The notes below the pieces were generated by a model. The model had not been told where the DNA came from and searched no databases. It saw only the letters and a list, made by a program, of their open reading frames with translations. A stretch of 64,000 nucleotides of DNA, from assembly GCF_035083965.1 (NCBI RefSeq), contig NC_089732.1:12105424-12169423 (forward strand), read 5' to 3'. Both the position numbers and the translations under genes were made by a program. The first letter of the stretch is position 1, and the number at the start of each line of letters is the position of its first letter. Shown here piece by piece: positions 31,501 to 64,000 of the stretch. Source of the stretch: Branchiostoma lanceolatum. Lineage: Eukaryota; Chordata; Leptocardii; Amphioxiformes; Branchiostomatidae.

Positions 31501-31551
31501 GGAGGTACTGCTATGGAAAACTTTGTAGCGTATCTGAAGAAGACCCTTTAA
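28518..31551 (+). CDS. Arylacetamide deacetylase-like serine esterase
   Basis: Four exons: 28518-28658, 29444-29687, 30057-30120 and 30804-31551. Phases 0, 1, 2 are consistent and give 398 residues, the usual AADAC length (399 in human). An N-terminal anchor (about 4-19) resembles the type II ER anchor of AADAC. HGGGW at 119-123 forms the oxyanion hole. The nucleophile is Ser193 in GDSAGG. Asp341 (CEYDVLKDDG) and His371 (GFHG) complete the triad. YRLAPEHKFPAAFDD and ALIYPALQ are classic family blocks. Members hydrolyse ester or amide bonds of lipids and xenobiotics in the ER lumen; the exact substrate, and orthology to AADAC versus NCEH1, cannot be settled by eye. The first 29 codons of a longer frame at 30715 are intron. 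Confidence 0.93.
28698..29026. repeat. Inverted-repeat element in esterase intron 1
   Basis: Left arm 28698-28777 and right arm 28946-29026 pair over about 80 bases (GATATGCTCTGTTCATTACC against GGTAATGAACAGAGCATATC). Confidence 0.8.
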
Positions 31552-32911: not shown

Positions 32912-34797
32912 TTAGAATTGATTGTATCGGATATTAGTTTCCTTCCTGTATCGTTTGTTCAGAGACAGCATAAGATGAAGATTTTGCGGCAGCCTTTGTG
33001 GCGCGTCACTGTCTAAAGATGTCACGGACTCGGTCCTCGTCACAGTCGAGTCGCTGGCGTCTGTGATCGTTGACGCATCCGTTTCGAAACCATCTGTTTC
33101 TGATGTCGTGTCTTCTTTAAGGAATTGCATGTTAAGAGTCTGACTTTGAGCCGACTCTTCTGTAGAAGTGTAGCTCGGACGTCTACTGCTTTCCTCCAAG
33201 ATGGAGTGCAGTTCCCTGTTGTATCCGCTTGTCGCCAATTGGCGCTGCGGAACGTTGACATGTCCCTCGCTGTCGGTCATCAGAACGCTGCCGTCGATAT
33301 CTATGTCATCCACATCCGGGTTACATCTCCTCGTCGGGACGTCAGTTCTGACCCATTCTTCCACTCCAAATATGGTATCAGACGGGTTCCCTTCAATAGC
33401 CAATAAAGCCTGGGGGTTCATCATTGGTCGTGCAATGCGGAACTGTGTCGGGAAAAGAAATTAAAGAAACAGTCAGTTAAGATGCGGACTTAAAACACAT
33501 TTACATACCAACAGCACTTCCCAGGACCCATAGATTAAGTAAAAGGATAATAATATGATAATCGATTCTACGCAATAAGATATCTCATATCTACACTCAT
33601 AAGAACATGTACTGTGAATCCAAACAATGGCCGACACTGTTACTGACAAACCAAGCAAACAAAGAAAGAGAAAAACAGACACACAATGACCGTGGGTCAA
33701 TATAATAAAAATATATAATAAAGACCTTACTGTTAACATGTCTAATGAAATATTTCTAAGAAGTGATAACATTCCAATCATTCTAGACTGTCTATAATGT
33801 GCTTCCTAATAAACTCCGCGAAAATAAAAGAATTATTAGTAGCGTGACCGAGTATTTAAGCAGCAATTTATGAAACAGTTGAAAAGGCCAAGCGCGTTAA
33901 GCCAACATTCAAAACACTTACGTCCCCGCTAGCCATGCTGTTGCTTTCGGTGTCGGATGCATCCGGGTTATAATAGCTACTGGGGCCGCCTACATCCGGG
34001 ATTCTCCTCCTTTCTACGACAGTACCCCTCTCTCTATCATCTCCAAATATGGTATGAGACGAGTATGAGTCATCTTGGAAAGTCCGCAGAGCCTGTAGGT
34101 CGATCACCGGCCGAGGAAGGCGGTACTGTACGGGTAGAACATAACTATTATTGAGAGAATAACGGAAATTTGAGAACTAACGTATAATGATCAACTACCA
34201 TAATTTCTCAGAACGCATGCTAATGCATAAAGTGCAACGTCAATTTTTTACTTTATAGAAACGATAAAAAGTCCCTCAATCAAAACACAAAACAGTTTAG
34301 CCAGATAGCCGACTGACTGACAGACCGGTGTCATAACAATGTCGTGTTTTAGGCGACTAACCCATTGTTTAGTATTTGTTGTTATGACATAGGGTACTAT
34401 CCATATATCCATATAACCATTCTTGAATTTGAGCTATAAAAGCAACGACCCAGATTGGATAAAACAAGTACGGTTGTGAAAAAATAGGAAGAACGTGCGC
34501 TTGGACCAAGTACTGTCGAACTGACAAAAAGAAATCCACTACTTATTCAATTTCAAATTTTACAATGATACACTTACGCGGACGTTAGAGGCGAAAATCT
34601 TTTCGTAAGTCTCTAAGTCCTTCGTGGTGCCGACAAAAGACGACGAGGGCCTTCTAGAACAGGTCTCTGATAGGTGAGTCCTCTGTAAACCCGGCAAGAA
34701 CCGAGTCACCCGGGTATCATATAGGTGGTCTTGATGAACATCTGTTTTGGACCATGGACTTGATACCCAGTGATGTCTGGACTTGAAGAACGTTGGC
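32912..34797 (-). other. Cytoplasmic tail (exons 34578-34797, 33922-34125, 32912-33442)
   Basis: About 315 residues, Ser/Thr/Asp-rich, ending in NIRYNQF and a stop at 32912. The last two exons both open with a related segment (YRLPRPVIDLQAL and FRIARPMMNPQAL), then S-x-TIFG and a [IN]PDV motif, so they look like a duplicated exon. No known tail domain is recognised. Confidence 0.85.
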
Positions 34798-37700
34798 CTA
34801 AATAAAACAAAAAATCGAGTCAGAAGAAATCTTTCCATGTTTGTCGTCATTAATAAATGAAGACATTTGTTGAAGAAAATGGTACAAGAAAATGATACTT
34901 TACAGATATATCAGTACATTGTCAAGTTACTACAAGAACTATAAACTTATTGACTTAATATCATAAGAGCACAGGGACTATACCGACGATATGTTGCAAA
35001 ACGTCTGAAAGGGAATTGATGGCAAAAGAAGAAATTTCAGGAAAAAGTACTAGTAGTCTTCACTACTAATAGGATAGAAAATATTTTTTATATTTCAATC
35101 CTGTTGGTACATAGCATTACATACTGGTTATACTTACTTATATCTTCTTGCCGTAGACTGGATGGACCGTCTTCGCATAATGATAATGACGATTAACATG
35201 ATGAAAACTACTACAGCGATCGTAACGGTTGTGCCAGTGACGACTGCAATTAAAGAAAAAAACACAATGAAGTCATTTCCAAATCCATTACTAAACTAAT
35301 TAATTGACCTGTGCCAGTAAAACTGACACATGAATTTTGGTTTTTGGTAGCCCGTTACGAATAAAACACAGAACAGATATGAAAGTTTATCTGTGTTTAC
35401 CTCATTAAAAGAGTCCATGATACAACAGAGAATGTACTCAAGGAAACTTGACGGTCTGTTAAAAGAGAATTCCTAGAACACTAGATTGGACCGGTAGAAC
35501 GTTGATGAATCAAATTCTTAGACTGAGAAAATAGTTGTTCTCTTTCATAAGAGTTTTATGAGATTCGCTGCATGTTCTTACCTCCAGTCAAGTATGTTTG
35601 GCACCTCTGTCCTGTGTACTGCAACGGACAGCTAAAACATGCAAAAACACAGTCAGTTATGTATAGGTTAAAATTCATTATGACAAATTACAGGAAATAC
35701 ATATGTGTCTTTTTTTTGCATCATGTACTTCTCACCACGTCGCTAGTGTAAAAAAAAGGATCATTCTGGCATAATTGAACTAAAGACATGAGAAGGCAAC
35801 TTACCTGCATGTCTTGGCATCGTTTTGGATGGAACATGATCCTCCGTTCAGACAATATCCTTGGTAGCAGAACGCTGTAATTTGACAGTCAATTGTTAGA
35901 TTGTCTCTTAGAACTATATATGGTAACAGTTACAGTTGCGTAGTGACCAAGCAGACTGTTAATTTATTACCAGAAAAGAGCTAAATACTGTAGAACACAA
36001 GTTTATGACTGGGCAAATGATGCCTACAGTGCTCCTTCTTGATCGGTATTACGCGAAGATCTCCTTTATCATATAGTAATATTTGCCACAATGATTGAAA
36101 ATTATAGTAAGATGTGGATTCTTTGATTGAAGACATGTACAGCCTCACGTTTACACAAAACTTTTTTTTTTCTATTGGAACGTTTCCGCGACGCCAACTT
36201 GACAAGCTCGATGCGTCATATATCCTCTGTTTTAAAGAAATATGTACCTGGACATAGAAATGGTCAAATTCAGTCCTCATGTATTCTAGTACAGATTCCG
36301 TAAGTTAACTATAGAAGTGAATGTTGCACGCTACCTCTGGTCGAGATGATGGACACGTTTAAGCCGAGTAGATCCACGGATGTGTTCCCGGCTCCCTGGA
36401 TGAAGGCTTGAGCGATGTCGGCCTTGGTTAGATGTGCGGAGGTGTCTGTTGTGATCATGGTGTCGGCGATGACACTGCCGTTCCTCAGGTCAGACACGGA
36501 CACAGCCATGTACGCCATGCGGATGGTAAGGTTAATGTGGGTCTCAAACAAACGAGTCAACTGTAAAAAAAAGGAAGGGTAAATGTATTAAGAGTTGCCA
36601 TTGACTATACCTAATATGAAGAGATAGTTAGGTTATATCTTATTACGCTTTTAGATTGTACCTATCGACTGTTTGTTATTTGTAGTTTATGTGCTGTGTA
36701 TTGTGATGTGTGGGGGCCACGACACCAGCAACAGCTGCCTGTGGCCTACGTGTATTGTACGGCTTGCCATCTCAATAAATCACAAATCACAAAGTGTTCA
36801 AGCATGTAGCGAAGGGATGATATCTGTAGGTAGATAGAGAAAATCCCATAGCCTTCTTTAGTCCTCAGGGGCAGTGGGTTGTTATCCACTGTGTGAAGGG
36901 TACGCCATTGGAAGACGGAGCCCAACCATCTCCTTCGAACCAAGAACATTTGGGTTCTGCATTGTCCTCGTTTTGTTCTAAAAATGACAACTAAAGGATT
37001 GCTGTAACTTGATGGTGCCAAATCAACAGCTTTACATTGATTCGCTTTCAGCTCAAAGACTATCAATGTATGTATTAATCATGTCAAACTGACCGTGAAT
37101 TCTATTAGCTCCTTCATCTTTTGGTACTCTGTCGTCTTGCAGTTGGCCAGATTGGCATTGAAGACAAGATCGTGGAACTGTAAGGTATTGGCAAACGCTG
37201 CAGAATCTGAAATGGAAATTTACTTTATATTAGTATGTTACACGACACAGCACTTATATAGCACTAACAAAACAAAGTACAGCGCAACGACAGCAGAAAC
37301 AATACAACATAACTTACGCAGCACAGCAAACGCAGTACAGCACAACAGATCACATCATAACAAAGCATAGTAGCGTAGCATAACACTAGAGAGCACAAAC
37401 TCATGCATCGTCGCAGCCAGCTTAGCAAGCACAGTACAACACTACACTGCACTACACTATACTATTCTACAGTACACTACACTTCACTTCACTTCTCTAC
37501 ACTAAACTACACTATACTATACTACACTACACTACACTATACACTAGACCAAACTACACTGAACTGCACACTACACCACGCGCACACTACGCTACGCTAT
37601 AAGACGCTCACCTGTTTTGCATGTTGTGGTGCCGTCTCCCGTCCAACCGCTTTTACACTGACAGTACTCGTGTGTGCCGTTAAACACCAGCTCCCCGTGT

Positions 37701-40700
37701 TCATGACATCCATAGTTACAGACAGGTTCTGTTAGAAAACAAGGAAATTTCATTGTTGACACTGTCATACAATCAACATATATATTGTGTGAAATGTGTC
37801 TAACGTTATTACATTTATTGCATGGCTTTCTTTGCTATTTTCAGACAAAAAAATAATAAACACGGTGTTTATGATACAGGCATTTGCGAAGTGATGATTA
37901 CTTCTGCCCATTAAAATAAAATGGTTAAATCTTAACTTATTTTGGCGAAGCATCAGTAGCGAGACTAATAGTGTGTATACTAAAAGTAAAGAAGGCTTAC
38001 CTGAACTGACACAGGTGTGTCCATCCGCCTGTAGGCTGTACCCTGCATCGCAGGAACAGCTATAGGAACCTATGCTGTTGGTACAGTCATGATCACACGG
38101 GAACTCCAAGCACTCATCCTTATCTGGAAGGCAAGAGGAAACCATTTTAGTTAGTATGGTACCATATTCATGATAGTTCTACCACCTCTGACCTCGACTT
38201 CCTGTCACTCACATGAGTCTGACCTTTGTGGTGTGAGAACATCTTTCAACTCACTTCTTGCTACTCTACTGGCCGTGTATTCAAATAACTACACACACAC
38301 AAAAACGCCAACATCCAGGCACTTCGAAAGCAAAGCCTCCGAACATGGAAGCAACTATTGCATATTACAATTTGAACACATAACAACAGAGTATGTATAC
38401 TGGAGCGAAATTAAGATTTCTTAGGATGATTTACTACTGATGAGGTCTATACGCAAATAATATATCTTATTGCCCGGCACTACGCAGCTTGTACGTAATG
38501 TACGAAAATGCTGTGATACATTTATAGGTGCTTCACTTGCTGTGCGAAAGAAACGAACAGACCAATTGGCTAACTTTTCTAGCATTGTAGATTATTTCTT
38601 GTGGCTTAAAAAGCATGTCCTGTTTACTTACGAATGATAGATAACCACAAAATATCTATGACAACAAACAGTTTGTCCGGAGATACAATACATTCAAAGG
38701 AAGGCATTAGGAAACGCTGCTTACCATTGCACGAAACACTGTCGTTGGCTAGGACGAATCCTGTTCCGCAGATACAAACGTACGATCCAAGCAAATTCAG
38801 GCAGCCGACTTTACATCCGCCCTGGCCATTCCTACCATTCAGTATGCACTCGTTCACGTCTGAAAACAAAATTACACAAATTAACATCAACACATCAAAA
38901 CATCGTAAGCATGCTCCCAAATCAAACTCATTAACCCTGAAAACGTCAAGCTATGAATTTCAAACTTCGCAACATATTCCCCGTTCCAAAATTTCGAACC
39001 ACACTAGTATTACTAATAGGTCATGCCAGTATCATTTGCAAGTAGTTATTTCATTGTGCAAATTTTCATATTATTTCAACTGACCTCCGCAGAGAGAGCC
39101 ATCCCCTTCGTAACCTGGCTTACAGGTACACCGGAAACCACCATCTTCGTCCTGGCAGACGGCATTGGTACTGCAGTCATTGGTCCCATTGGAGGCACAC
39201 TCGTCTATATCTAAATGAGAAACGTAGTCTTAGATTACACTCTGAAACAAAATTAGGCACACGCTAGCTGACAAAGGACCTCGTCTATTCGACGTTACTG
39301 TTATACATGACAGAATATCCTGTCCAGGATACCGTAATTAAGCCTGATTAAATTGAGCCTTATTATTGGCGACGCCTCAGGGGCGAGCCTAATGATGTAT
39401 ATATTGTATGTTGCTTGTCTGTCGTGTTTTCGCATTGTCAGTGCTGCCTTTTTTGTTCGTAGAACGGACATACTCGCAAATCAGTATGGGTAAAGTGGTG
39501 AAGTCAGCCATCTCAAGAACATTTTCAATTCATCCATTCATATTAGCAACATTAATTATGGGGTCACTTTGCGTATGCATTCGCATGGCACATACTTTCT
39601 TGAAGATAACCTGTTTCAGTACTAGCTATAGTCAAACACTAACAACGAAAAAATGGCCATTGTATAGAATCCTAAACCAATGCAAGGATAGTGTCTTACT
39701 TATACACGTCTTTCCATCTGCGTCCAGGTAGTATCCCGATTGACATCGGCAGTAAAACGACCCCTCCGTGTCTTCACACATCTGACTGCAGTTCCCGTTG
39801 TTGATGTCGCATTCGTGAACGTCGTGACATCGCCGTCCGCCGTGTGCGGTCGATAAACTATAACCTTCTTTGCAGATGCATTCGTAACTTCCAAGAGTGT
39901 TGCGGCATTCTTTGGCGTTCTCGTCACATTTGTGAGTCTCATCGGTACATTCGTCGATATCTGTAACGAATAAACAATAAGTTTAATTTTTCTGGGCCAC
40001 AGCCGTTTCAATGGCATAGATAGTTGTACAGTTTTAATTTTCAGAGCAAGGGGCCCCGTGTTTGGGGAAAGCCACACAGATTCCATGCACACATTGATAA
40101 GAGAAGGGTCTATGGGGATGTCCAACCTATTATTCCTGCTGACAAGGACCCATTGATGACGTCAGTAATATCATAAGATACTTAAATTCTAGCTCAAGAT
40201 ATCAAGTGTCACATCAAACATACCGATGCATGAATTGTCCGGTTGAAGTTTGTATCCCAGGTCACAATAGCAAACCTCAGCTCCGGTGGCGTTGATTGCG
40301 CATGCTCCAATGGGTTGCGGATGGCATTTGTTCCCTACCCCACATGTGATGTTAGCTGTGAGGACATCATGCAGAAGGACAAGATTAAAATCAAAACTAC
40401 ATTTTGCAAGTAATTAACATAATTACCATCAACATCATGATTATCACCATCACTATCTCCTTTGGTGGCTTCTCGATCTTTATGGTATATTAAAACGTTT
40501 ATCTATGTTTATTTGTTATGTTTAGACACTTGTACACGTACCACATCAAAACATGAAAACCACGTTTAGTTAGACACTTACCGGTACATGTTCTGCCATT
40601 GGGGGCCAGAACGAAAAGGGGGTTACACCGACACTCGTAGTAGCCCACTCGGTCGTCGCAGAATTGCTCGCACTTACTTCCCGCGTCACATTCATCGAGC

Positions 40701-43700
40701 TCTGAGATAAAGAGAGGCAAATTGTCAGGGTTTAGTGTTGCGAAGACTCGAGAGTATCACATTCTAGTAGTGAACAGAAACCTTTTTTTTCTGAGAAAGA
40801 GAATTCACTCCTTGGTCCGATTCGCAAAAATCTAACTTATTGTTATTGTACTTGTCTATGTAAGTTGTAATTTTTTTTCCAGAGGTGATGTTTAATATTA
40901 GCTTTAGCTAGAGTGCATCACCTCTGTGTCCTGTATATTCTTCTGTTGTTTAATAAATAAAATAATAATAAAAAAATAATAAAAAAATAAAAAAATCTTT
41001 TATCACTTCCCATTCTACTACGAAGAGCCGCCCGCGACCTATACCTTCGAGAGGCTCTGCTAAATCGGGCTGAGGTGAAACATTCATGTCAAGTTGCATT
41101 ATATGCACCCTGATGCACCCGATTTCTTATTCCTCTTCGTGACCATATTGAAAAAGTTACACGTCATTGAAAACCCGATGACAATCGTAGACAAACGTAT
41201 TGTAGACTTAGAGACATACTAGACACATACCTAGACATGTCCGTCCATCCGAGTGTAGATAGTAGGCTGTTCCACACGCGCACTCGTAGTCCCCATCCAT
41301 GTTGATGCACTCTCGGTTGCACCCACCGTTGTTGTCAAGGCATTCATCAATATCTAAGATATGACATCAAAGCTAGAGTTACAATTTATTCCATAGGCTA
41401 TGTACATATCGTATGCACATGGGACATGCATTGATTGTGTGTTGGTCACCAGGAATGCGAATGATGATTTCGAAAGTGCTCATATTTGAACTTTTTCTGT
41501 CTTTGTGTGGCATCATATTTCACAAACCAGAGTGAATCAAGCGCCGGGCAAATATCTAGATCTGTTTTCCACGACTCGAACTGCCAAGGAAGCAAACGAC
41601 TTCTTGTGGTATCATTTATACATTTGTCAGCGCAGGCAAGCCGTCACTTGTTAATAATGCCTCGCATACGGTCACAAGAGGCGACGTCATTGGCTAGTAA
41701 CTCTCCCTCCCGCAACAGGAGAGGGGATCTGATTGGCTGATGGTTGGAGAGCGCTAATGCAGCACTAATGCAGCACTAATGCAACACTAATGCAGCACTA
41801 ATGCAACACTAATGCAGCACTAATGCAGCGGATTATAGACCGGTACGCCAGGGCCATGCCTGCTACGAAAGGATGATTTGGAGAGTCTAATAAACTTACC
41901 TGCACACGTTTTCCAATCGCTTTGAAGCCGATATCCGGGCTGACAACCGCAGGTATACCCGCCGTCCGTGTTGGTACAGAAGCCATGGCGGCCATCACAG
42001 TCATTCTGGGAGGGCTGGCGACACTCGTTGATGTCCAGACACACGTGCGAGCCGCCCTCCTTGTGGAAGCCTTGAGGACACACACATGTGTAGGACCCTG
42101 CCGTGTTGACGCATTGGGCATTCACGCACTGGTGTGCAGCGGTGCCGTTTACGTACAACATGCATTCGTTCAAATCTGCGTAGTGGTAAAAAGCAAACAT
42201 GTTTTATCAATGACGATGACAATTAAGTTTATTGCATATTCATACCCAACATACATTACGTAATATCAGGAAAATAATAGGAAAACTAGGCTATTCTTAA
42301 TCTATGATTTAGATGTTTCTTCTCTGTTCTTAAGTTCAAGTATCATATTTTAAGCACTGTTGGCTAAACTTGACTGTATATTACGTATGTAAGTCAGGAT
42401 AATTTGAGGATAATATCACCAAATACGTTTTTCTTCTTAACCATGCTGGCAGTGCTAGGCTCTGTTGACATAGTCAGAAAGCAACTTCTGATGAAGCTTT
42501 TTACTGTTGCAATATTACAACGCGAAATAAATGTCTAGTAAAACATTGAAAACAAAGTTGAGGTTCCAACCTGCACATTGCTCGCCGTTCCCGGCCAGAC
42601 CACTCCCGCAGGAACCGCACGTGTAGCCCTTCTGCCCTGGCGCTAGAGGAGCCGGCTGGTCCGTACATGTCACGCCTACATAAACAAGAGTAGAAACATC
42701 ACAGTCGGATGAAATATAAGAACACCGCACGTTTTCCTTCAATGTGCAAAGTGTAAATGTGTGTACATGTGTGTGATGATATTGGCTTCTGACTAACAGA
42801 AACAAGCTTAGCCACGTTTGGGACAGTGTTCTCACCGCAAAAGCGCCACCAACATCGGCTACTTCAACAGCGGTGAGAAGCAATACTCCAGTCAGAAGCT
42901 CTGAAGAAGGTGTCTGATAGACAACGAAACGTTAGCAGGTGGGATTCCCTGGTTGGGTAAAAAGAATCTCCTATATCCTAGAAACAAATCACTATTTTTT
43001 TTCTCTTTTCAAGTTCGTCATCCAATTTGGCATTGTATTACATATCTAATTGAATTTTGATGAATAATATGTCGAATTAATTACCTTGAAAGCAGGGACT
43101 ACCATCGCATCCGTCTATGTCCACCTCACAGAAGGGCCCACCCCATCCGCTGGGGCACACACAAGCTGCGGGGGCGAAGCCTTCGTCCCGGTCCCCGACG
43201 TTGTCGTAATCACACAATCCTCCGTTTACGCAGCCGCAAACCTGTTGGAGTAGACGTTTATTTTATTAGATCAAATACGGGACGGGGGACGGTACAGGCT
43301 TTCTGACACATTCCACGTTTTAATTCCGTACCCGGTACATGTCGTGGTGGGTGATTCTACCCGCGCATGGCTTGAATTCGACATGCAACCGAAAATTCAG
43401 TTTATCTATTTCTTCATAGAATTAGCTTTAAAGGTAAGCTTTCCTTCATACCTTTTACCAATATGGACACAATTCTATGTGATTATCGCATATTTTAATC
43501 ACTTGGTAGTCATGTTTGAATAGTTTTCGCTTACCGTGATTTGGGGAACAAAGGAGACAGTTGCGTTCAAACGATCAGATGCCGTCCAGCTGATAGTCAC
43601 TTTGTCCGTGCTTGTCGGTATCCACACGAATGTGGCCTGTAGGCTACCGGTCTGCGACAACGTGCCCACGCCGTTCAGTGTTATTGTAACGCTTGTCTCT

Positions 43701-52700: not shown

Positions 52701-55700
52701 TTAATATATGTGACTTACCTACAATAAGGGTCTCGCACCGATCGCCCGTGTGAGACAAAGGACACCTAGCGGAAAAGAACCAAACTACATTAGAGGAAAG
52801 GCATGACATGCAACACGGGAACCTAGGAAGCTGAAATATACACTTCACTAAGGTGATTCTATATTAGTGTTAAAGCTCGTTGAATATCTTTTAAGATTAT
52901 TTTATTTCATCTATTCATAACACCTTATTAACAAATCTGTGGTATTCTTTTTAAGACATTATAAGAATTCAAAGGAGTCTGAAACAGAAAAAAATATTGT
53001 TGTGTAAAAATCTATTTCATGGCTTTCAAATAATCGAGTTGATCTTGAAAAAGAAAGTCTGATGTACACTTTAACGTCACAAAGACAACTTACGTGCAGG
53101 TCCGTGACTTGTTGACGACTGTACACTCACCACCATTTAAACAGTAGCCAGTGTAACAAAGCTCTGAAAATATATGATTTCTCAGATTATCATATGGTGT
53201 ACATTGAGAGAAACTACTATGAAAGATTCACAGTTGATCTATATATCTAAAATCTAGGACCGAAGAAAATAGAGAATGAAAACAGCCACAAAAGAAGGGA
53301 GAGTATCACTGACTTAAACACTATGTGAATGATGAAACATCCTTTTTTATCTGTAATGTATACTCAAGTCTTATGTATGTAATACACTTAGCGCTACGTA
53401 ATAAAAACTATGGGGATAAAGGAATAATTAAGATAGATTATCTGAAATTTAAGCAGATTGAGTGATAAGCAAACCTGCAGTGGTGATATCTAGGTTGATC
53501 CCAAGAGAGTTGATAAAGGCTTGCTCCAAAACATCGTAGGTGAGGTTTGCAGCTACGTCCGTTACAATGGTGGCAAGTGCGATGAGGCTGCCGCTTCGGA
53601 ACGAGGTTATGGTGATGGAGTAGATGTAGTCAGCGACGGTACTTTCTGAGTAGATTTCAGTGATCTAAAGAACAACAAAAAAGGAACAAGAAATTGAAAA
53701 TCTCCTTCCTCCGTGGAAAAGTTTTAGATTCTGTGCATTTCTTGTTTTACTCATTATTGTAAATTTCTAGCTGATTCTCTCACAAGGCAACGGATATGCA
53801 TATAGCAGGAAGCTGAAGACAGGAAAGGACAAACCTATTCTGGGACCTTTCTGGGACCTTTGACCTAACTTCCTGTCAGCGTCTCCGACGTGCCTAGCAT
53901 GCGGTAACTCTAGTATACATGATTCATATAACTGAGAGAACACAAGAAATCAAAGAGACACATCGAATTCGAAAGCGAAACATCCTTACACAGAGGTACA
54001 GATGGACTTCTCTACCAAGTATATGGGGGTCTACAAGGCCTAGGGAAGAGCCCAAGCCGCAAATATGTACTGAAATGTACCATAATGCAGTTACTATTTC
54101 AATTATGTACGTGCACCTTATTAAACTCCAGGTTCGTTTTATTCACAAAGAGTGGCTTCAGGACGAACAAAATCAAATATACCTCAGTATTTCAAATACA
54201 AATGTATTAATCAACGTTACATTTTAACGAGATGAAAGAATAAATGTTTGCTTCATCTAAAATACAACGGAACTGTTTAGATAAACACCCACCGTGGTTT
54301 CTGTCTGCGTCTTGGTAGACTTGAAATCCTCAGATGTGCAGTCAGCAAGTGCAGACCTGTACGACAGCCCCGTCAATGTGATGCTCTGGGAGAAACCGCT
54401 GGAAACTAGATAGCAATGAAAATAAGAAGATGCAGCTATTATATATTCAATATTTACGACGATAGCTTCCAATTCCGCACTACTTTATCATCACGTATAT
54501 CATGAATGTCTCATAACTGCTAGGTAGCTTGTATCACTCCGCTACATAGACTATAACGATAGCAAAATAAACTTAGAAGTCAGCCCTCAAAATGTTTCCT
54601 TTTATTCATCGGTCATAAACGGACATTAGAGCACAACCGAGCACAGCAGTAACTGATTACATTTTTCAGATGAACACAAAACGTCGAAAACAGTTCATCA
54701 AACTGCAACTTAGCATTACGACATAGTCAATGTATTGCTCAAGCTATGGAAGTCAAATTAAGAGCAATTCCCCTCTAATATGTGCAAATACAAGATATAC
54801 TTCTTGCAAAACAGATTTGAGACTAAGAGACAGAAATCAAACTAAGAGCAATATCCTCCGCTGATATGTGCAAAGGTATACTTCTTACAATACAGATTTG
54901 AGAGCAACCCAGACGTTAAGAATACTTGTATGAAAGCTGGATTCTCACCAAGTTCGCAGACGGTACCGTTTCCTGAAAATCCTTTTCTGCAGAGGCACGT
55001 TCCATCAGACTGGGCGTCAGCGTGCTCATCACAACCTGAATTACACACTTGCAAAATTGTTGGCATCATCGTTGTAACTTGTGTTGTTGGCGATGCTGTT
55101 GTACTTATGGTTGTGCTCTGGGATGGTGTACTAGTCCGTGTACTCCTTGTTGTTGGTGACAGAGTAGTCGCCAGTGTTGTAGCTCTCGGTGTTGTAGTTG
55201 GTATCACTGTAACCGTTGTGTTTTCTTGTGGAGTTGTCGTATGTTCCTTTGTTGTTGATGAAAGTGTTGTCAACACTGTTACGTCCTTTGAAGTTGTTGA
55301 AACTGTTGTCATGACTGGCATTTGCACCGTCGTTTTGAACGTGGATGTCAGCTGTGTAGTTTTCAACGTAGATGCAGGCTCTGTTGTTTTCACCGTAGAT
55401 GGCTGCTGTGAAGTTTTCGCCGTAGATGGAGACTGCGTAGTTTTAACTGTAGTTGGAGATTCTGTAGTTTTCGTAGTAGACGGCGGCTGTGTAGTTTTTA
55501 CCGTAGTTGTAGACTCTGTAGTTTTCGCCGTAGATGCAGGTTGTGTAGTTTTATCAGTAGTTGTAGACTCTGTAGTTTTCAACGTGGATGCAGGTTGTGT
55601 AGTTTTATCAGTAGTTGTAGACTCTGTAGTTTGAGCCGTAGTTGGAGCCTGTGTAGTTTTAACAGTAGTTGTAGACTCTGTAGTTTTCACCGTAGATGCA

Positions 55701-58700
55701 GGTTGTGTAGTTTTATCAGTAGTTGTAGACTTTGTAGTTTTCGCCGTAGATGGAGACTGTGTAGTTTTAACAGTAGTTGTAGACTTTGTAGTTTTCGCCG
55801 TAGTTGGAGCCTGTGTAGTTTTAACAGTAGTTGTAGACTCTGTAGTTTGAGCCGTAGATGCAGACTGTGTAATTTTATCAGTAGTTATAGACTTTGTAGT
55901 TTTCGCCGTAGATGGAGTCTGTGTAGTTTTAGCAGTAGTTGTAGGCTCTGTAGTTCTCGCCGTGGATGGAGGTTGTGTAGTTTTCACAATAGTTGTAGAC
56001 TCTGTAGTTTTCGCCGAGGATGGAGTCTGTGTAGTTTCAACAGTAGTTGTAGCTTCTGTAGTTTTCGCCGTAGTTGGAGGCTGCATAGTTGTAACCGTGG
56101 TTGTTGGCTCTGTAGTTTTCACCGTAGATGGAGACTGTGTAGTTGTAACAGTAGTTTTAGCCTCTGTGGTTTTCAGCGTAGATGGGGGCTGTGTAGTTTT
56201 GATAGTTGTTGTAGACTCTGTAGTTTTGGCAGTGGATGGAGGTTGTGTTGTTTTAACCGTAGTTGTAGACTCTGTAGTTTTGGCCGTAGATGGAGGCTGC
56301 ATAGTTGTAACCGTGGTTGATAACTCTGTAGTTTTTATCGTAGTTGTAGACTCTGTAGTTTTAACAGTAGTTGTAGCCTTTGTAGTTTTCAGCGTAGATG
56401 GGGGCTGTGTAGTTTTGATAGTTGTTGGAGGCTCGGTTGTTTTGGTCGTAGATTGAGGTTGTGTAGTTTTAACAGTAGATGTCGGCTCTGTAGTTTGGAC
56501 CGTGGATGAGAGCTCCGTCGTTTCCACAGAAGATGGAGGATGTGTCGTTTCCACCGTAGATTGAGGCTGTGTAGTTTTAACTGTAGATGAAAGAGGTGTC
56601 GTTTTCGGAGTAGGCGTGAGCTGCGTTGTTTTCTTCGTTGATTGAGACTGTGTTGTCTTCACCGTAGATGGAGGCTGTGTAGTTTTTACTGTAGATTGAG
56701 GTGATGTAGTTTTCACCGTCGATTGAGACTGGGTAGTTGTAACGGTAGATAGAGACTGTGTCGTTTCCATCGTAGATAGAGGCTGTGTAGTTTCAACCGA
56801 AGATTGAGGTCGTGTACTTTTTACCGTTAATGGAGGCTGTGTAGTTGCTACCGTAGATGACAATTCCGTCGTTTGTACCGTAGATGACAGTTTCGTCGTT
56901 TCTACCGTAGATGACTGCTGTGTAGTTTTAACCGTAGATTGAAGCTGTGTTGTTTTTGCGGTAGATGGAGACTGTGTAGTTTTCATCGTGGATGGATGTT
57001 GTGTCGTTTCTACCGAAGACTTAGGCTTTGTAGTTGCAATCGTCGATGTCGGCTGTGTCGTTTTTCCCGTAGATGTCTGCTGTGTTGTTTTTACTGAAGA
57101 TTGATGCTGTGTAGTTGTAGACTCTGTAGTTTTCGCCGTAGATTGAGGCTGTGTAGTTCCCATCGTAGTTTTAGGCTGTGTAGTTCCCATCGTTGTAGTT
57201 CCCATCGTAGTTGTAGGCTGTGTAGTTCCCATCGTTGATGGAGCATGTGTAGTTCCCATCGTAGTTGTAGGTTGTGTAGTTCCCATCGTTGATGGAGCAT
57301 GTGTAGTTCCCACCGTAGATTGAAACTGTGTGGTTCCCACCGTAGATGCAGGTTGCGTCGTTGCCATCGTTGGCTTAATCGTTTTCACTGTCGTGAAAGG
57401 CTTTGTAGCTTTTACAGTTGACTGCACTGGTGTAGTTTTTACTGTAGATGGCTTTTGCGTGCTTTTCACCGTGGTAGCAGGCTGTGTTGTTTCAGTTGTT
57501 GACGGCACATATGTAGTTCTCACCGTGGACAATGGCCGAGTAGTTTTTGATGTAGTTGATGACAATGTACTCTCAACTGTCGAGGGTGCGCTAGTAGTCT
57601 TTACCGTGGATGGCACCTGTGTAGTTTTTAAAGTAGAAGACAGCTGTGTACTTATTACAGAAGATTGTGTCGTTTCGAGTGTGGTTATAGGCGGTGTACT
57701 CTTGACCGATGACGACACTTGTGTAGTTTTTGCTGTAGAAATGGGTTGTGCATAAGTAGTTATCACCGTAGTTGGAGGCTGCGTAGTTTTCACAGTTGTT
57801 AAAAATTGTGTAGTTACCATCGTGGATGGTAATTGAGTGGTTGCTTTGGTAGATGACGCCCGTGTAGTTTTCAATGTAGATGTAGGATTCGTAGATTGTA
57901 CCGTAGATTGAGGCTGTGTGGTTCTCACTGTAGATTGGGGTTCTGTTGTTGCCATCGTCGAGGGTAGCTGCGTAGTTTTCAATGTAGAAGGCGCCTGTGT
58001 AGTTTTCAACGTAGATGTAGCTTGTGTAGTTTTCACCGTAGATTGAGGCTGTGTGGTTCTCACTGTAGATGGAAGCTGTGTTGTTGCCATCGTTGGCTGA
58101 ATCGTTTTCATTGTAGTGGAATGCTTTGTACTTTGACCTGTTGACTGAGCCTGTGTAGTTTTCAATGTAGAAGACGGCTGTGTAGTTTGCACTGTAGATG
58201 TAGGCTGTGTAGTTTGCACTGTAGATGTAGGCTGTGTAGTTTGCACTGTAGATGTAGGCTGTGTAGTTTGCACTGTAGATGTAGGCTGTGTAGTTTGCAC
58301 TGTAGATGTAGGATGTGTAGTTTGCACTTTTGATGTAGGCTGTGTAGTTTGCACCGTAGATGTAGGCTGTGTAGTGTGCATAGATGTAGGCTGTGTTGTT
58401 TTTACTGTAGATGTAGGCTGTGTAGTTTGCACTGTTGATGTAGGCTGTGTAGTTTGCACTGTTGATGTAGGCTGTGTAGTTTGCACTGTTGATGTAGGCT
58501 GTGTACTTTGCACTGTCGATCTAGGATGTGTAGTTTGCACTGTAGACGGTGACCGTGTAGTTTGCACTGTAGATTGAGACGGTGTAGTTTTCATCGTCGA
58601 AGGCAGGTTTGTGGTTATGTCCGTAGTTATAGGCTCTGTAGTTTTCACCGTCGCGGTGGTGGACGGTTGTGTACTTTTAAATGTTGAGGTAACTGGTGTA

Positions 58701-61700
58701 GTTTTTACCGTAGATGGGGATCGTGTAGTTATCCTTGTAGTTTGCGGCTGTGTACTTTTTACAGACGCTGTGGTGAAAGGCTGTGTAGTTACCAACGTGG
58801 AAGGTAGCTGAGTGGTTGTCAATGTAGATGACGCCCATGTAGTTTTCACCGTAGATGTAGGATGTGTAGTTTTCGCCGTAGATTGAGATCGTGTAGTTCT
58901 CGCCGTAGATAGAGGTTGTGTTGTTGCCATCGTTGGCTGAATCGTTTTCATTGTAGTGGAAAGCTTTGTAGTTTTAACTGTTGGAGGCTGCGTCATTTTC
59001 TCTGTCGATGTTGGCTGCGTAGTTTGCACTGTTGATGCAGGCTGTGCAGTTTTCACTGTTGATAGAGGATGTGTAGTTTGCACTGTCGATATAGGATGTG
59101 TAGTTTTCATTGTAGATGTAGGCTGTGTTGTTTTTACTGTAGATGTAGGCTGTGTACTTTGCACTGTCGATGGAGGCTGTGTTGTTTCCACTGTCGATGG
59201 AGGCTGTGTTGTTTTCACTGTAGATGGAGGCTGTGTAGTTTTCACCGTGGTAAAGGGTTGTGTAGTTACCATTGTGGAAGGTGGCTGAGTGGTTGTCAAT
59301 GTAGATGACGCCCATGTAGTTTTCATGGTCGAAGGCAGGTCTGTAGTTTTGTCCGTAGTTAAAGCCTGTGTAGTTTCTACCATCACAGTAGTTGACGGCT
59401 GTGTACTTTTAAATGTTGAGGGCACCTTTGTTGGTTTCACCGTAGATGGTAGTCGCGTAGTTATCCTTGTAGTTCGAGGCTGCGTACTTCTTTCAGATGT
59501 TGTGGTGAATGGTTGTTTTGTTTCAATCATGGTAGAAGGTTGCATTGGTGTAGTCGTCGTTTGTACAGTGGATGACAGCCGCGTACTTTCCATCGTAGAA
59601 GGACGCTGTGTGGTTTTAAATGTTGAAGGCATCTGTGTAGTCTTCGCGGTAGACCAGGGCCGTGTAGTTTTCACCGTGGTTGTAGAATATGTTGGCTTTA
59701 CAGTGTGAATCGGTGTAGTTGCTACAGTTGAAGGCAGATGGGTAGTTGTTGTGGTGGATATGGGCTGTGTCGTTCTTACCGTGGTTGGTGGCTTTGTAGT
59801 TTTCACCGTGGATTGAAGCATGGTAGTTTCCACGGTAGAAGGCATCTGCGTAGTTTCAGAAGAGGTTACAGGCAGTGTAGTTTCCACGGTGGATGGTCGC
59901 AGTGTTGTTGTCACCATTGACGAAACCTGTGTAGATATAATAATTGTTAATGTTAGAGGCTGCATAAAGTCTAGAGTAGCTGAAAGCACAGTGAAATCTA
60001 CAGTTGCTGATGTTATTGCACTTTTTGCTTTTACTAGATCTGAGAAATGCGCTGTTCTTTTAGAGTCTGGGTAGTTATATCATTAGTTAGAGGCTGTGTG
60101 TAGTTGTTACTGTTGTAAGACTATTTGTTGTCATCAACGTGGTTAGAATCTGGATTGCACTCACCGTGGTTGGAGACGCTGTAGTTTCCATAGTGGATGC
60201 TGATTGTGTAGTCTTCTCCGTGGAGGGATGCAGTGACGTTGTCACAGATGGCGGCAGCTGTGTAGTTGCTTCCGTAGATGCTCCCAGTGTAGTTGTCACA
60301 ATCGGCGGAATCTCTGTCATTTCTATCGTTGTTAGAGGCTGTGTAGTTTTTGCATAGGTTGGAGCATTTGTAGCCTTCAACGTTGTAATTTCTGCTGTGG
60401 TTGCAGCCTGTGTAGTTTCCATCGTGGTTAGAGCATTTGTAGATTTTGCGGTGGTTGGGGCATTTGTAGTTTTTATGGAGGTTGGAGCACTTGTAGATTT
60501 TATCGGGGTTGAAGCATCTGTAGTTTGAGCATCTGTAGTTTTCACCGTGGTTGGAAAACGTGTAGTTCTTGCTGTTGTTGAAGAGGCTGTAGTTTTAATT
60601 GTGGATGGTGTCTGCGTAGTCTTTACCGTTGATGGTGACGACGTAGTTGCCACCACTGTTGTAGATATTAATGTAGTTTCTCCTGTTGATAGTGGCTGTG
60701 TAGTTTCTCTTCTGGTCGGAGTTTGTGTAGTGTCCTCCATTTTTGTAGTTTCTCTGGTTTCTACCACTGTCGGAGGCTGTGTAGTTTCCAGTGTAGTCAG
60801 AAGCTGTGTAGTCCCTACTGTAGTTGGAGCCTGTGCAGTTTTTACTGTTGTTCCAGTTTCTGATGTTGTTAAAGTTTGTGTAGTTGCTGTCGTTGTTATA
60901 GGAAGTGTAGTATCAAACGTTATTGAAGGCTGTGTAGTTTTTGGTGTGGTCGGAGCCTGTGTACTTTCCAACGTTGTTAGAATCTGTGTAGTATCTATCG
61001 TTGTTAGGGGCTGAGTGGTTTCGGCATTGGTTGGAGCATTTGTAGGTTTCACCGTCGATAGAGGCTGTGTAGTTTCTGCCGTAGTTGGAGCCTGTGTAGT
61101 TTGCACCGTGGTTTGAGCTTTTGTAGTTTTCATCGTGCTTGGAATCCGTGTAGTTCTTAGTGCCGTTGTAAAGGCTGTAGTTTTCATTGTGGATGGCGCC
61201 TGTGTAGTCTTCAACGTTGAAAGAGATTGTGTAGTTTGTGCATTGGTTGAGGTCTGTGCAGTTTTCACGGTGGTTGCGGCATTCGTAGTTTTTAAAGTGG
61301 TTTGGGCATTCGTTGTTTTAACCGTAGTTGGAATCCATGTAGTACCTGGTGTTATTGTTGTTGTAGACGCTGTAGTTTTCATTGTGGATGGTGTCTGTGT
61401 AGTTTTCATTGTTGATAGAGGTTCTGTAGTTTCTGCATTGGTTGAGGTCTGTGTAGTTTTCACGGTGGTTGCGACATTCGTAGTTTTTAACGTGGTTTGC
61501 GCATTTGTGGTTTTAACCATGGTTGGAGTCCATGTAGTACCTGATGTTGTTTTAGATTTTGTTGTTGATGGTGTCTGCGTAGTCCTTACCGTTGATGGCG
61601 ATGGTGTAGTTCCCACCGCTGTTGTAGAAACCAGCGTAGTTTCTCCTGTTGTTAGGGGCTCTGTGGTTTCTTTTCTGGTTGCAGTCTGTGTAGTTTCCTC

Positions 61701-64000
61701 CCTTTTTGTAGTTTCTCTAGTTTCTACCACTGTTGGAGGCTGTGTGGTCTCTGCTGTAGTTGGAGCCTGAGTAGTTTTCACCGTTGTTAGAAGATGCGTA
61801 GTTTCGTCTGTCGTTGGAGCCTGTGTTGTTTTCAACGTTGTTGGTTGATGTGTAGTTTCTGCTTTTGTTTCAGCTTCTGTAGTTATTACCGTGGTTGGAG
61901 TTTTTGTAGTTTTAACCGTAGTTGGAGCATTTGTAGTTTTCATTGTTGTTTTAGGGACTGTAGTTTTCATTGTTGATGGTGTCAACGTTGATAGAGGTTG
62001 AGTAGTTTCTGCATTCGATGGAGTCTGTGTAGTTTTCACGGTTGTTGGGGCATTTGTAGTTTTTACCGTGGTTGGAGTTCTTGTAGTTTTAACCGTAGTT
62101 GGTGCATTTGTCGTTTTTGTTGTTGTTTTAGAGACTGTAGTTTTCATTGTGGATGGTGTCAACGTTGATAGAGGTTGAGTAGTTTCTGCATTCGATGGAG
62201 TCTGTGTAGTTTTCACAGTTGTTGGGGCATTTGTAGTTTTTACTGTGGTTGGAGTTTTTGTAGCTTTTACTGTAGTTGGAATCCGTGTAGTTGCCATTTT
62301 TGTTGTAGAGGCTGTAGTTTTCATTGTAGACGGTGTCTGTGTAGTCTTCACCGTCGAAAGGAATGGCGTAGTTCCCACCGCTGTTGTAGAAACTAGTGTA
62401 GTTTCTCCTGTTGATAGATGTCGTGTAGTTTCTATTGGAGTTTGAGTCTGTGTAGTTATTGTTGTTGTTGTTGCAGAGGCTGTAGTTTTCATTGTGGATG
62501 GTGTCTGTGTAGTCTTCACCGTTGATGGTGATGGTGAAGTTCCCACCGCTGTTGTAGAAACTAGTGCAGTTTTTCCTGTGGTCAGCGACACTGTAGTTTC
62601 TCTTTTGGTTGGAGTTTGTGTCGTGTCCTCCAATTTCGTAGTTTCTCTAGTTTCGACCACTGTTGGAGGTTGGGTTGTTGCTGCTGTTGTTGTTGGAATC
62701 TGTGTAGTTTTCATCGTTGTTAGAAGCTGCGTAGTTCCTTCTGTAGTTGGAGTATGTGTTGTTTTCGACGTTGTAAGGGGATGTGTAGTTTCTGCTGTAG
62801 TTTGAGCTTGTGTAGTTTCCATCGTGGTTGCAGCTTTTGTAGTTTGCATCGTGGTTGGAATCCATGTCGTTCTTGTTGTTGTCGTTGTAGAAGCTGAAGC
62901 TTCCATTGTGGCTTGTGCCTGCGTAGTCTTAGCCGTTGATAGACTTTGAGTAGTTTCTTCATCCGTAGGACCCTGTGTAGTTTTCATTGTGGTTGGGACA
63001 TTTGTAGTTTTTACCGTGGTTGGAATTCGTGTAGTTGGAATCCGTGTTGTTGCAGAGGGTGTGGTTTTCATTATGGATGGCGTCTGCGTAGTTTTCACCG
63101 TCGATAGGAATGGTGTAGTTCCCACCACTGCTGTAGAAACTAATGTAGTTTCTTCTGTTGATGGAGGCTGTGTTGTTTCTATTCGGGTCGGAGTTTGTGT
63201 AGTTATTTTGGTTGTTGTTGCAAAGGCTGTAGTTTTAAATGTTGATGGCGTCTGCGTAGTCCTCACCGGTGATGGCGATGGTGTAGTTCCCAACGCTGTT
63301 GTAGAAACTAGTGTAGTTTTTCCTGTGGTCAGCGACTCTGTAGTTTCTCTTGTGGTTGGAGTTTGTGTCGTGTCCTCCAATTTCGTAGTTTCTCTAGTTT
63401 CTACCACTGTTGGGGGTTGTGTAGTTTCTGATGTGGTTGGAATCTTTGTAGTTTTCATCGTTGTTAGAAGCTGCGTAGTTTCTTCTGTTGTTGGAGCCTG
63501 TGTTGTTTTCAACGTTGTTAGGGGATGTGTAGTTTCAGCAGTAGTTTGAGCTTGTGTAGTTTCCACCGTGGTTGCAGCTTTTGTGGTTTTCATCGTGGTT
63601 GGAATCCATGTCGTTCTTATTATTGTCGTTGTAGAAGCTGAAGTTTTCATTGTGGATGGTGCCTGCGTAGTCTTCGCCGTTGATAGAGTTTGAGTAGTTT
63701 CTTCATCCGTAGGACCCTGTCTAGTTTTCACGGTGGTTGGGGCATTTGTAGTTTTTACCGTGGTTGGAATTCGTGTAGTTGGAATCCGCGTTGTTGCAGA
63801 GGGTGTGGTTTTCATTATGGATGGCGTCTGCGTAGTTTTCACCGTCGATAGGAATGGTGTAGTTCCCGCCACTGCTGTAGAAACTAGGGTAGTTTCTTCT
63901 GTTGAGAGAGGCTTTGTAGTTTCTCTTCTGGTTGGAGTCTGTGTAGCTATTGTTGTTGTTGCAGAGGCTGTAGTTTGCATTGTGGACGGTGTCTGCGTAG
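32912..64000 (-). CDS. Giant transmembrane mucin (Thr-rich, SEA, EGF, TSP1, NIDO, AMOP, VWD), 5' end off window
   Basis: Forty-one exons are read on the minus strand: 60111-64000 (open at the edge), 54949-59926, then 39 small exons down to 32912-33442. All junction phases agree; EGF-type introns are phase 1 and NIDO introns phase 0. Order: Thr-rich tandem repeats, EGF, SEA, split EGF, TSP1, EGFs, NIDO, AMOP, VWD (GDPH), Ig/cadherin-like, EGF array, SEA, split EGF, transmembrane helix, cytoplasmic tail. The NIDO-AMOP-VWD run is that of MUC4 and Mesh; the SEA-EGF-TM end is that of MUC3/12/17. It is presumably an apical, heavily O-glycosylated surface protein. Orthology to any one vertebrate mucin is not claimed. 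The signal peptide and 5' exons lie beyond 64000. Confidence 0.88.
35138..35243 (-). other. Transmembrane helix exon
   Basis: VVTGTTVTIAVVVFIMLIVI continues to IIMRRRSIQSTARR. One hydrophobic span of about 22 residues is followed by a triple-Arg stop-transfer signal, giving type I topology. Confidence 0.9.
35582..35874 (-). other. Split EGF 2 (exons 35805-35874 and 35582-35631)
   Basis: AFCYQGYCLNGGSCSIQNDA..TC joined across a phase 2 intron to CPLQYTGQRCQTYLTG. Its exon pattern is the same as split EGF 1. Confidence 0.88.
36335..37206 (-). other. SEA domain 2 (exons 37094-37206 and 36335-36560)
   Basis: LQFHDLVFNANLANCKTTEY then LTRLFETHINLTIRMAYMAV, VSDLRNGSVIADT and DIAQAFIQGAGNTS. The NGSVIA stretch fits the Gly-Ser autoproteolysis loop. 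The first exon is 113 bases, exactly as in SEA 1. Confidence 0.75.
36640..36800. repeat. Retroelement 3' tail fragment in mucin intron
   Basis: Ends GCCATCTCAATAAATCACAA with a short repeated tail. An antisense SINE-tail piece (CCCATAGCC..GGGTTGTTATCCACTGTG) follows at 36845-36930. Confidence 0.4.
37255..37600. repeat. Simple-sequence region (ACTACACTAC-type) in mucin intron
   Basis: Low-complexity tandem CACTACACTATACT-like DNA between the last array EGF and SEA 2. It generates the open frames at 37403 and 37264. Confidence 0.75.
40870..41000 (+). repeat. Non-LTR 3' end fragment, A-rich tail
   Basis: AGAGGTGATGTTTAATATTA, then TGTTTAATAAATAAAATAAT running into poly(A)-rich repeats. Confidence 0.4.
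41754..41829. repeat. 11-bp minisatellite, about 7 copies
   Basis: Unit TAATGCAGCAC with an alternating TAATGCAACAC variant, in the intron before the double-EGF exon. Confidence 0.85.
42885..42985 (+). repeat. Half-copy of the GAAGAAGG..GAAACGT foldback family
   Basis: GAAGAAGGTGTCTGATAGAC, GAAACGTTAGCAGG and TTGGGTAAAAAGAATCTCC match the right arm of 15757-16065. A similar piece (CTGAAGAAGG) lies near 48611. Confidence 0.55.
43085..43788 (-). other. Ig/cadherin-like segment and MUC4-type EGF (exons 43535-43788, 43085-43241)
   Basis: NNPPTLTGPSNIRLRVGETF has a beta-sandwich-like pattern but low motif content. The next exon carries VCGCVNGGLCDYDN, CVCPSGWGGPFCEVDIDGCD and GSPCF, the arrangement that follows VWD in MUC4. 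Confidence 0.75.
44132..45867 (-). other. VWD domain and C-terminal extension (exons 45690-45867, 45274-45428, 44638-44889, 44132-44437)
   Basis: Opens ASGIGDPHMTTLDGSQFSFN with the GDPH site known to self-cleave in MUC4 and gel-forming mucins. LQGILGNANGNTSDDFIIPD matches the family G.LGN.NG.P.DDF. The last exon holds the ACGGQDRAACLHDVGVTG tail seen after VWD in MUC4/Mesh-type proteins. Confidence 0.9.
44961..44987. repeat. (TGAA)n microsatellite
   Basis: Six or more TGAA units next to a retroelement-like tail. A short similar run is at 50900. Confidence 0.8.
46490..46640 (+). repeat. Degenerate tRNA-derived SINE in mucin intron
   Basis: GGGTCGAATCCCTAGCACGC (box B) is followed by GAACACTTTACACCTATTTC. 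It has the same lineage as 16380-16500. Confidence 0.55.
47155..47218. repeat. 'TTACTCAAGCAACTGG' MITE fragment
   Basis: GGTTAGACATCCAGGTAATA through CAAGCAACTGGAT; one end only. Confidence 0.6.
47758..47845. repeat. (GT)n/(GTAT) microsatellite
   Basis: An alternating GT run in the intron between NIDO and AMOP exons; source of the spurious 286-codon plus-strand frame. Confidence 0.9.
48063..50161 (-). other. NIDO domain (exons 50019-50161, 49371-49553, 48816-48977, 48063-48410)
   Basis: Begins DRLFPFGEAMNDTLLTVLSE, then VSENGIAIATNGKNHF, DICAIFAPFWANNRFQ, VWYNTYTSDESG and ATNFTASFVLVATWQRMVP. These are typical nidogen-like blocks. The last exon (348 bases) holds QAVIATDYRRTYTMYRYKDG and a Tyr/Arg-rich extension. 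Confidence 0.88.
50165..50480 (-). repeat. SINE core copy, antisense, lacking the palindrome
   Basis: Matches 1376-1690 in minus-strand sense (GGACGTTAAATGAAGGTCCC, AAGAACCCACCACACC). Uninterrupted CACACCGGGGCATGCCCC near 50290 shows the pre-insertion state. Confidence 0.8.
51108..51855 (-). other. Three EGF domains (exons 51703-51855, 51404-51529, 51108-51254)
   Basis: The first is atypical: HIDWCDPVEDRCGQSTGAGN with CYCNHGYDIVL. The next two begin DIDECTSGMNDC and DIDECQGLLNTNCDAH, with calcium-binding D-x-D-E-C starts. Confidence 0.85.
52288..52461 (-). other. Thrombospondin type 1 repeat (one exon)
   Basis: GEFGQWSDWSNCLSTCGEGS, then RMRTRECDSPPPSAGGRYC and FQPCDLPPC. The WSxWSxC and CSxTCG-like motifs and six cysteines fit TSP1. 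Such repeats carry C-mannosyl Trp and O-fucose in other proteins. Confidence 0.9.
52719..53163 (-). other. Split EGF 1 (exons 53094-53163 and 52719-52765)
   Basis: ELCYTGYCLNGGECTVVNKS..TC joins CPLSHTGDRCETLIV across a phase 2 intron. It has six cysteines in EGF spacing. Confidence 0.85.
53475..54405 (-). other. SEA domain 1 (exons 54293-54405 and 53475-53664)
   Basis: Sequence FSQSITLTGLSYRSALADCT leads into SEDFKSTKTQTETT, then VADYIYSITITSFRSGSLIA and VLEQAFINSLG. The TSFR-SGS-L pattern is the SEA autoproteolysis loop (cleavage between Gly and Ser). No membrane helix follows this copy. Confidence 0.7.
54949..59926 (-). repeat. Mucin exon 2: 4978-base Thr-rich exon ending in an EGF domain
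   Basis: Entered at acceptor CTACACAG|GTTTCG (59927/59926). 27-base (9-residue) units of the STVKTTQPP type fill about 1500 codons. From about 58580 to 58180 the units are nearly identical (STVQTTQPT), with one 8-residue unit. From about 56450 to 55440 the order is a 54-base dimer (KTTESTTTVKTTQPPSTA). The exon leaves the mucin region as MPTILQVCNSGCDEHADAQS and ends in a short EGF (CLCRKGFSGNGTVCEL), so mucin and EGF parts belong to one protein. Confidence 0.9.
60111..64000 (-). repeat. Mucin exon 1 (partial): Thr-rich region with ~745-bp super-repeats
   Basis: The open frame contains no Cys and is made of roughly 9-residue units such as TTVKTTQAP, TTAETTQPL and TTMKTTKIP. A distinctive block (STAVAGTTPFLSTVKTTQTP) recurs at DNA positions 63851, 63107 and 62360, giving super-repeats of 744-747 bases. 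A shorter 177-base duplication lies at 61983 and 62160. The proposed donor is ACAACA|GTAACA at 60111/60110; this weak donor is the least certain splice call in the gene. The frame would otherwise stop at 60087. Confidence 0.75.

Follow-up and report, generated by a model that had tools for sequence, protein, structure and literature searches.

A candidate single-gene membrane mucin that joins a MUC4-type core to duplicated SEA-EGF modules

The minus-strand exons that occupy the second half of the window (the whole stretch of 64,000 nucleotides that was analysed) raise the question of whether they belong to one gene for a membrane mucin carrying both a MUC4-type core and a SEA/EGF membrane anchor or to two adjacent genes, and, if to one, whether such a protein is of an ancestral type or a lineage-specific fusion. 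In PMC5039420 and PMC9080433 the membrane mucins of vertebrates fall into two classes, one with NIDO-AMOP-VWD and one with SEA, in agreement with the two-class split from which the initial annotation of the locus had started. Taken jointly, the observations are best explained by one gene for a type I membrane mucin of very large size, with the parts and the serial-break-point working set out here, and the probability of this reading is put at about 0.78.

A gene model was assembled, from genomic sequence alone, out of open reading frames and scored splice sites. It runs on the minus strand from 63998 to 32912 and comprises 41 exons encoding 5133 residues (Table 1). A single frame passes through all 41 exons with no internal stop and ends at a TAA codon (32914-32912, minus strand), and thus the coordinates and the single splice frame proposed in the initial annotation hold. 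The model is open at its 5' end: the Thr-rich exon overruns the end of the window, and the signal peptide and N-terminus therefore lie outside it. Its introns are 149-946 bases long. Because the exon boundaries of the model had been picked with phase in mind, the agreement of splice phases was tested again unforced, with only the best-scoring acceptor and donor of each exon core being used (40 cores, 39 adjacent pairs). The cores were chosen by eye as domain-like; 37 of the 45 initially listed were kept, and the other 8 were duplicates, gave no hit, or lay in competing frames already judged wrong. In this test, which was not entirely blind because those 8 cores were removed and 3 others added once the splice sites were known, 34 of the 39 adjacent pairs were phase-compatible, compared with 18.9 on average and never more than 30 when acceptors were shuffled (20000 permutations). 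The model's own sites were recovered as the best-scoring ones for 36 of 40 acceptors and 35 of 39 donors. Counting against the model are several weak splice sites, namely the acceptors of exon 28 (-0.1) and exon 36 (-0.6) and the donors of exons 4, 21 and 24 (scores between -0.5 and -0.1). The first tail exon could also take a shorter form by use of the donor at 34710, with the phase unchanged. A different exon between AMOP and VWD (46611-46461) was rejected in favour of 46452-46308, which matches phase and provides a Cys-Cys stretch, and no extra exon within AMOP was seen in 47500-46960 (three frames and splice sites), AMOP scoring above its cut-off without one.

Table 1. Features of the mucin gene model, listed 5' to 3' along the minus strand.
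Feature	Position	Strand	Evidence
PTS exon 1, Thr-rich mucin domain, at least 1278 aa, 5'-open	60165..63998	-	open frame, donor score 5.9
PTS exon 2, EGF-like stretch at end (from about 55048)	54949..59926	-	open frame; EGF-like by Cys pattern
SEA domain 1	exons 54405-54293, 53664-53475	-	Pfam SEA 7.0e-8; internal intron phase 0
EGF after SEA1	exons 53163-53094, 52765-52719	-	structure match EGF (1egf) 1e-5; internal phase-2 intron
TSP type 1 domain	52288..52461	-	Pfam TSP_1 5.5e-13
Cys-rich exon	51855-51703	-	Cys pattern
Two EGF exons	51529-51404, 51254-51108	-	Pfam EGF_3, EGF_CA
NIDO	exons 50161-50019, 49553-49371, 48977-48816, 48410-48063	-	Pfam NIDO 9.1e-20
AMOP region (46308..48100)	end of 48410-48063, then 47650-47500, 46975-46878, 46452-46308	-	Pfam AMOP 5.0e-7
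VWD	exons 45867-45690, 45428-45274, 44889-44638	-	Pfam VWD 8.8e-18
C8-3 domain, MUC4 type	44132..44437	-	Pfam C8-3_MUC4 (PF23263) 2.2e-7, 30.5 bits, cut-off 25
Exon 22, no Pfam assignment above cut-off	43535..43788	-	strand-rich low-confidence model, pLDDT 51.6
EGF array, 11 exons, 43241-43085 to 37728-37612	37612..43241	-	Pfam EGF_CA 3.8e-61, 9 stretches
SEA domain 2	exons 37206-37094, 36560-36335	-	Pfam SEA 1.6e-6; internal intron phase 0
EGF after SEA2	exons 35874-35805, 35631-35582	-	structure match EGF (1a3p) 6.7e-6; internal phase-2 intron
Transmembrane exon (exon 38)	35138..35243	-	mean hydropathy 3.06, highest in whole model
Cytoplasmic tail, about 330 aa	exons 34797-34578, 34125-33922, 33442-32912	-	splice model

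The joined protein was searched against Pfam, with curated cut-offs, in four overlapping or abutting pieces that cover everything after the PTS region. NIDO, AMOP, VWD, TSP1, two SEA domains and the EGF array, all named in the initial annotation, pass their cut-offs in the joined translation, SEA2 doing so narrowly (28.7 bits, with the cut-off at 26.4). Little weight attaches to the absence of any NCBIfam match for the mucin core, since that library is built for bacteria and archaea. The Thr-rich exons expected ahead of this domain region are present as a PTS region of at least 2904 residues over both exons (39% Thr; 58% Ser, Thr and Pro together), with no cysteine and a 9-residue period. The VWD domain likewise contains no cysteine in 192 residues and carries the tetrapeptide GDPH (45856-45845, minus strand), and the SEA domains carry the motifs RSGSLIA (SEA1, 53598-53578) and RNGSVIA (SEA2, 36485-36465), also on the minus strand. 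The EGF domains immediately before SEA1 and SEA2 were identified by their Cys pattern, as were the first and last exons of the EGF array. The membrane anchor, too, has the composition that had been proposed for it, SEA2 being followed by an EGF, a transmembrane segment and a tail; this EGF scores under the cut-off with the Pfam hEGF model (0.046) and is assigned from its structure match. Exon 38 is the only strong transmembrane segment in the model, the next-best hydrophobic segment (1.72) lying within an EGF.

The two SEA-EGF modules resemble each other over their whole length (alignment score 257, shuffle maximum 57) and within the SEA part (score 116, shuffle maximum 51). They also have the same introns, in phase 0 within SEA (at the same place in the alignment), in phase 1 between SEA and EGF, in phase 2 within the EGF, and in phase 1 after it. 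Most simply, to judge by this likeness, the modules would be copies of one exon set. A two-row profile of SEA1 and SEA2 matched the solved structures 1ivz (9.2e-5) and a chain of transmembrane protease serine 11D (1.3e-4), with weak matches to agrin (1.4) and Mucin-1 (1.7); 1ivz, listed as hypothetical protein 1110008I14RIK, is presumably the SEA domain of mouse MUC16. Against the proposed reading, the single modules gave mostly EGF matches among solved structures, 1ivz being found at 0.062 with the SEA1 module and not among the best 60 matches listed for the SEA2 module. Since the match of SEA2 by itself is modest, support for it was taken from its likeness to SEA1 and from the two-row profile. 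The EGF domains that adjoin SEA1 and SEA2 are closest in sequence, among solved structures, to EGF itself. For the VWD domain, the nearest solved structure is the Fc fragment of IgG binding protein (3.4e-35), followed by VWF and gel-forming mucins, and no MUC4 chain is among the solved-structure matches listed, which likewise counts against the proposed reading. A second internal likeness is found in the cytoplasmic tail, where the second and third exons resemble each other at their starts, 18 of 46 aligned columns being identical (score 57, shuffle maximum 48) and the motif RPxxxxQAL...TIFG being common to both (within 32912-34125, minus strand). This suggests that a tail unit was duplicated; no likeness is seen between the first tail exon and the second (score 21, shuffle mean 22).

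The model could in principle have merged two adjacent genes, an upstream one for a secreted or truncated MUC4-like protein and a downstream one for a SEA-EGF-transmembrane protein. Transcription of the mucin as one unit is something that we infer, and EGF arrays join in phase easily because their exons are mostly of phase 1-1 (25 of the 40 junctions in the model are in phase 1). This reading is nevertheless very improbable, given that the largest intron measures only 946 bases, that the upstream half has no other strong transmembrane segment, and that an internal start was not detected. For the last point, 33 introns (numbers 2 to 34) were scanned for a first exon that resembles a signal-peptide start and is followed by an in-phase donor scoring at least 2; none of the 33 contained one on the gene strand, and the opposite-strand control gave 3 hits, two of them nested, in a scan that can overlook a start because 12 of the 40 donors of the model score below 2. 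Frame continuity, phase agreement, compact introns and the lack of a detected internal signal-peptide start thus make a single hybrid membrane mucin, as first claimed for this locus, most likely.

Within this single mucin the layouts of both vertebrate classes meet, and the claim that a MUC4-type core and a SEA/EGF anchor belong to the same protein is borne out in the model. Like MUC4, the protein has a PTS region followed by NIDO, AMOP and VWD in that order, EGF domains and a transmembrane segment, and it shares the C8-3 domain, by the name of the Pfam model. Its VWD domain, Cys-free and with GDPH, is also MUC4-like by the criterion described in PMC1552070 and PMC5354666, the VWD domains of human and chicken MUC4 being reported to be without cysteines (Lang et al., PMC1552070). 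Unlike MUC4, which as described in PMC5039420 and PMC5354666 is without SEA and has a tail of 22 residues, it has two SEA domains above the cut-off, and its tail is about 330 residues long. The present protein differs further in having one TSP1 domain and a long EGF array.

MUC3, MUC12, MUC13 and MUC17 have a PTS region followed by EGF-SEA-EGF. The protein resembles them in its PTS region, EGF, SEA, EGF and transmembrane anchor, with SEA followed by EGF occurring twice here and one such pair adjoining the membrane, and in the Gly-Ser motif of the SEA domains (GSLIA and GSVIA), which marks candidate cleavage sites. The class I PDZ pattern is S/T-x-hydrophobic. Such an end, described for the MUC3 cluster in PMC9578598, is missing from this protein, which terminates in NQF. 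It also differs from MUC3, MUC12, MUC13 and MUC17 in the presence of a NIDO-AMOP-VWD core, these three domains being confined to MUC4 among membrane mucins in the account given by PMC5354666.

From the N-terminal side, the domains follow each other as a Thr-rich domain, predicted to carry O-glycans, EGF, SEA1, EGF, TSP1, EGFs, NIDO, AMOP, the Cys-free GDPH-bearing VWD, the MUC4-type C8-3, the EGF array, SEA2, EGF, a transmembrane helix and the long tail. A mucin of this kind would stand on an epithelial surface as a tall brush coated in sugar, with the NIDO-AMOP-VWD-EGF rod acting as a putative adhesive spacer. SEA mucins mostly cleave themselves, reassociate non-covalently and respond to tension (PMC9578598); SEA1 and SEA2 may do the same at Gly-Ser, their halves being held together non-covalently. 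Cleavage of MUC4 has been postulated to occur at GDPH (PMC4202122, PMC5354666), and the VWD domain is possibly cleaved here as well. With SEA1, SEA2 and GDPH all candidates for cleavage, the chain would have three serial break-points, so that its extracellular part could be released under load and a stub of EGF, transmembrane segment and tail would be retained in the membrane. The cleavage motif of the MUC1 SEA domain is GSVVV (PMC4456727), the exact form of which is absent here, Gly-Ser being present in both SEA domains. In MUC16, cleavage was found experimentally away from the predicted GSVVV-analogous site (PMC4456727), a case that by analogy, together with the non-GSVVV motifs, would count against SEA cleavage in this protein. 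The EGF domains of MUC4 are reported to bind an ErbB receptor (PMC5039420, PMC5354666). As a single chain with three candidate cleavage sites, the protein would be a useful model of surface mucin release.

The initial annotation had also put the locus forward as a leading candidate for an undescribed system, and this claim does not stand, because mucins of mixed architecture are already a known kind from reports on sea anemones (PMC9080433) and corals (PMC4890752). In Actinia tenebrosa and three other sea-anemone species, a mucin4-like protein is described with NIDO, AMOP and VWD and a single SEA domain on the C-terminal side; other mucin4-like forms in the same report carry CUB, ZP and FN3 (PMC9080433). 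Compared by description, the SEA-bearing sea-anemone form and the present protein are alike in NIDO-AMOP-VWD, in a SEA domain placed C-terminal to these and ahead of the membrane, in a low-complexity region and in a transmembrane segment; they differ in that one SEA domain is described there and two are found here, and the term TSP is absent from the main text of PMC9080433. A mucin4-like protein of the coral (Acropora) skeleton, called coral-unique in PMC4890752, has TSP1 N-terminal to NIDO, AMOP, VWD and EGF, an order that the protein encoded here shares, again by description. In the coral form TSP1 is repeated, unlike the single domain here, and the words "SEA domain" do not occur in the main text of PMC4890752.

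What may be new is the particular combination. In the open-licence literature, among the matches listed, there was found no protein uniting TSP1, the MUC4 core, two SEA-EGF modules and a long tail, no such mucin with three candidate cleavage sites and a duplicated SEA-EGF, and no SEA-bearing MUC4-type mucin in a bilaterian. The amphioxus papers found in the open-licence literature were one on an unrelated subject and one on SNPs, which mentions a SEA domain gene but, in its accessible text, no such mucin. An echinoderm matrix review and a paper on the red-coral skeletome, likewise in their accessible text, contain no protein with SEA plus NIDO-AMOP-VWD.

The literature does not appear settled on a separate origin of MUC4 as against a loss of SEA from it; the proposal that MUC4 arose from a SEA-bearing ancestor, with SEA subsequently lost, is cited in PMC9080433 (from Zaretsky & Wreschner 2013). 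If the host is a bilaterian, the present gene would provide a second, phylogenetically distant mucin with SEA and a MUC4 core, and the question of origin could then be put to the test with a phylogeny of the core and a comparison of where the introns lie. A lineage-specific fusion, in which a MUC4-type core acquired a SEA-EGF-transmembrane anchor by exon shuffling independently of the sea-anemone case, is entertained tentatively, at clearly less than even odds. That there are two SEA-EGF modules, alike in where their internal introns fall (and with the alignment score given above), indicates that the module moves or duplicates, and its borders are symmetric, in phase 1, as a fusion would have it. 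Against a fusion stands the presence of the same combination, with SEA also on the C-terminal side, in four sea-anemone species (PMC9080433): if the host is not a cnidarian, fewer events are required when the combination arose once, long ago. In a cnidarian host, a reading of low probability, the gene would be one more member of the published mucin4-like group of sea anemones and corals, where TSP1, NIDO-AMOP-VWD, EGF and a C-terminal SEA each have a precedent, and its novelty would be smaller still.

The ancestral reading is that, in a bilaterian, the ancestor shared by the two classes of membrane mucin survives in this protein, and we consider this reading possible but rather unlikely in its full form, that is, with its scheme of the parts kept and with the three break-points. 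The N-terminal half (PTS-EGF-SEA-EGF) would be what MUC3, MUC12, MUC13 and MUC17 retained and the core what MUC4 retained after loss of SEA, the intact form functioning as a mucin that has SEA1, GDPH and SEA2 as serial break-points. In a bilaterian host, the gene would strengthen the case for an ancestral SEA-bearing MUC4, short of proof.

Several other features were noted in the window, the genes near the mucin being of ordinary animal kinds. Beyond the 3' end of the mucin gene, and tail-to-tail with it, is a gene for an alpha/beta hydrolase (29387-31551, plus strand), with an Abhydrolase_3 match (1.2e-46) in the long exon 30715-31551 and no Pfam match above the cut-off in the upstream exon 29387-29695; we take this gene to be AADAC-like. 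A 5S rRNA match (53.2 bits; 26654-26774, minus strand) may mark a SINE derived from 5S RNA and not a 5S gene, because additional sequence continues 3' of the match, and ARAGORN predicted no tRNAs in the window. A leucine-rich repeat (LRR) membrane protein of up to 601 residues is encoded in a single frame at 24342-26147 (minus strand), and its tail contains a near-repeat in which PYARSPYVFDVPQYH occurs twice (119 nucleotides at 81% in the DNA). An open frame at 22405-22914 (plus strand) has a signal-like start and one hydrophobic segment, as judged by eye, and no Pfam match. A compact inverted repeat at 21010-21489, whose arms measure 163 nucleotides at 95% and which has additional copies nested in it, resembles a mobile element. 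Towards the start of the window are a UPF0542 gene (5236-5517, plus strand; 2.1e-29), presumably SMIM15-like, an ERCC8 gene (12616-12957, minus strand; 1.3e-36 to the ERCC-8 chain 7oo3), and an NDUFAF2-like gene whose two exons (15570-15842 and 16893-17177, plus strand) were joined by hand and match chain 8ca5 at 1e-10, with no Pfam match above the cut-off. The counterparts of these three genes are, we believe, also neighbours on human chromosome 5q12, and their grouping here may be an old conserved synteny.
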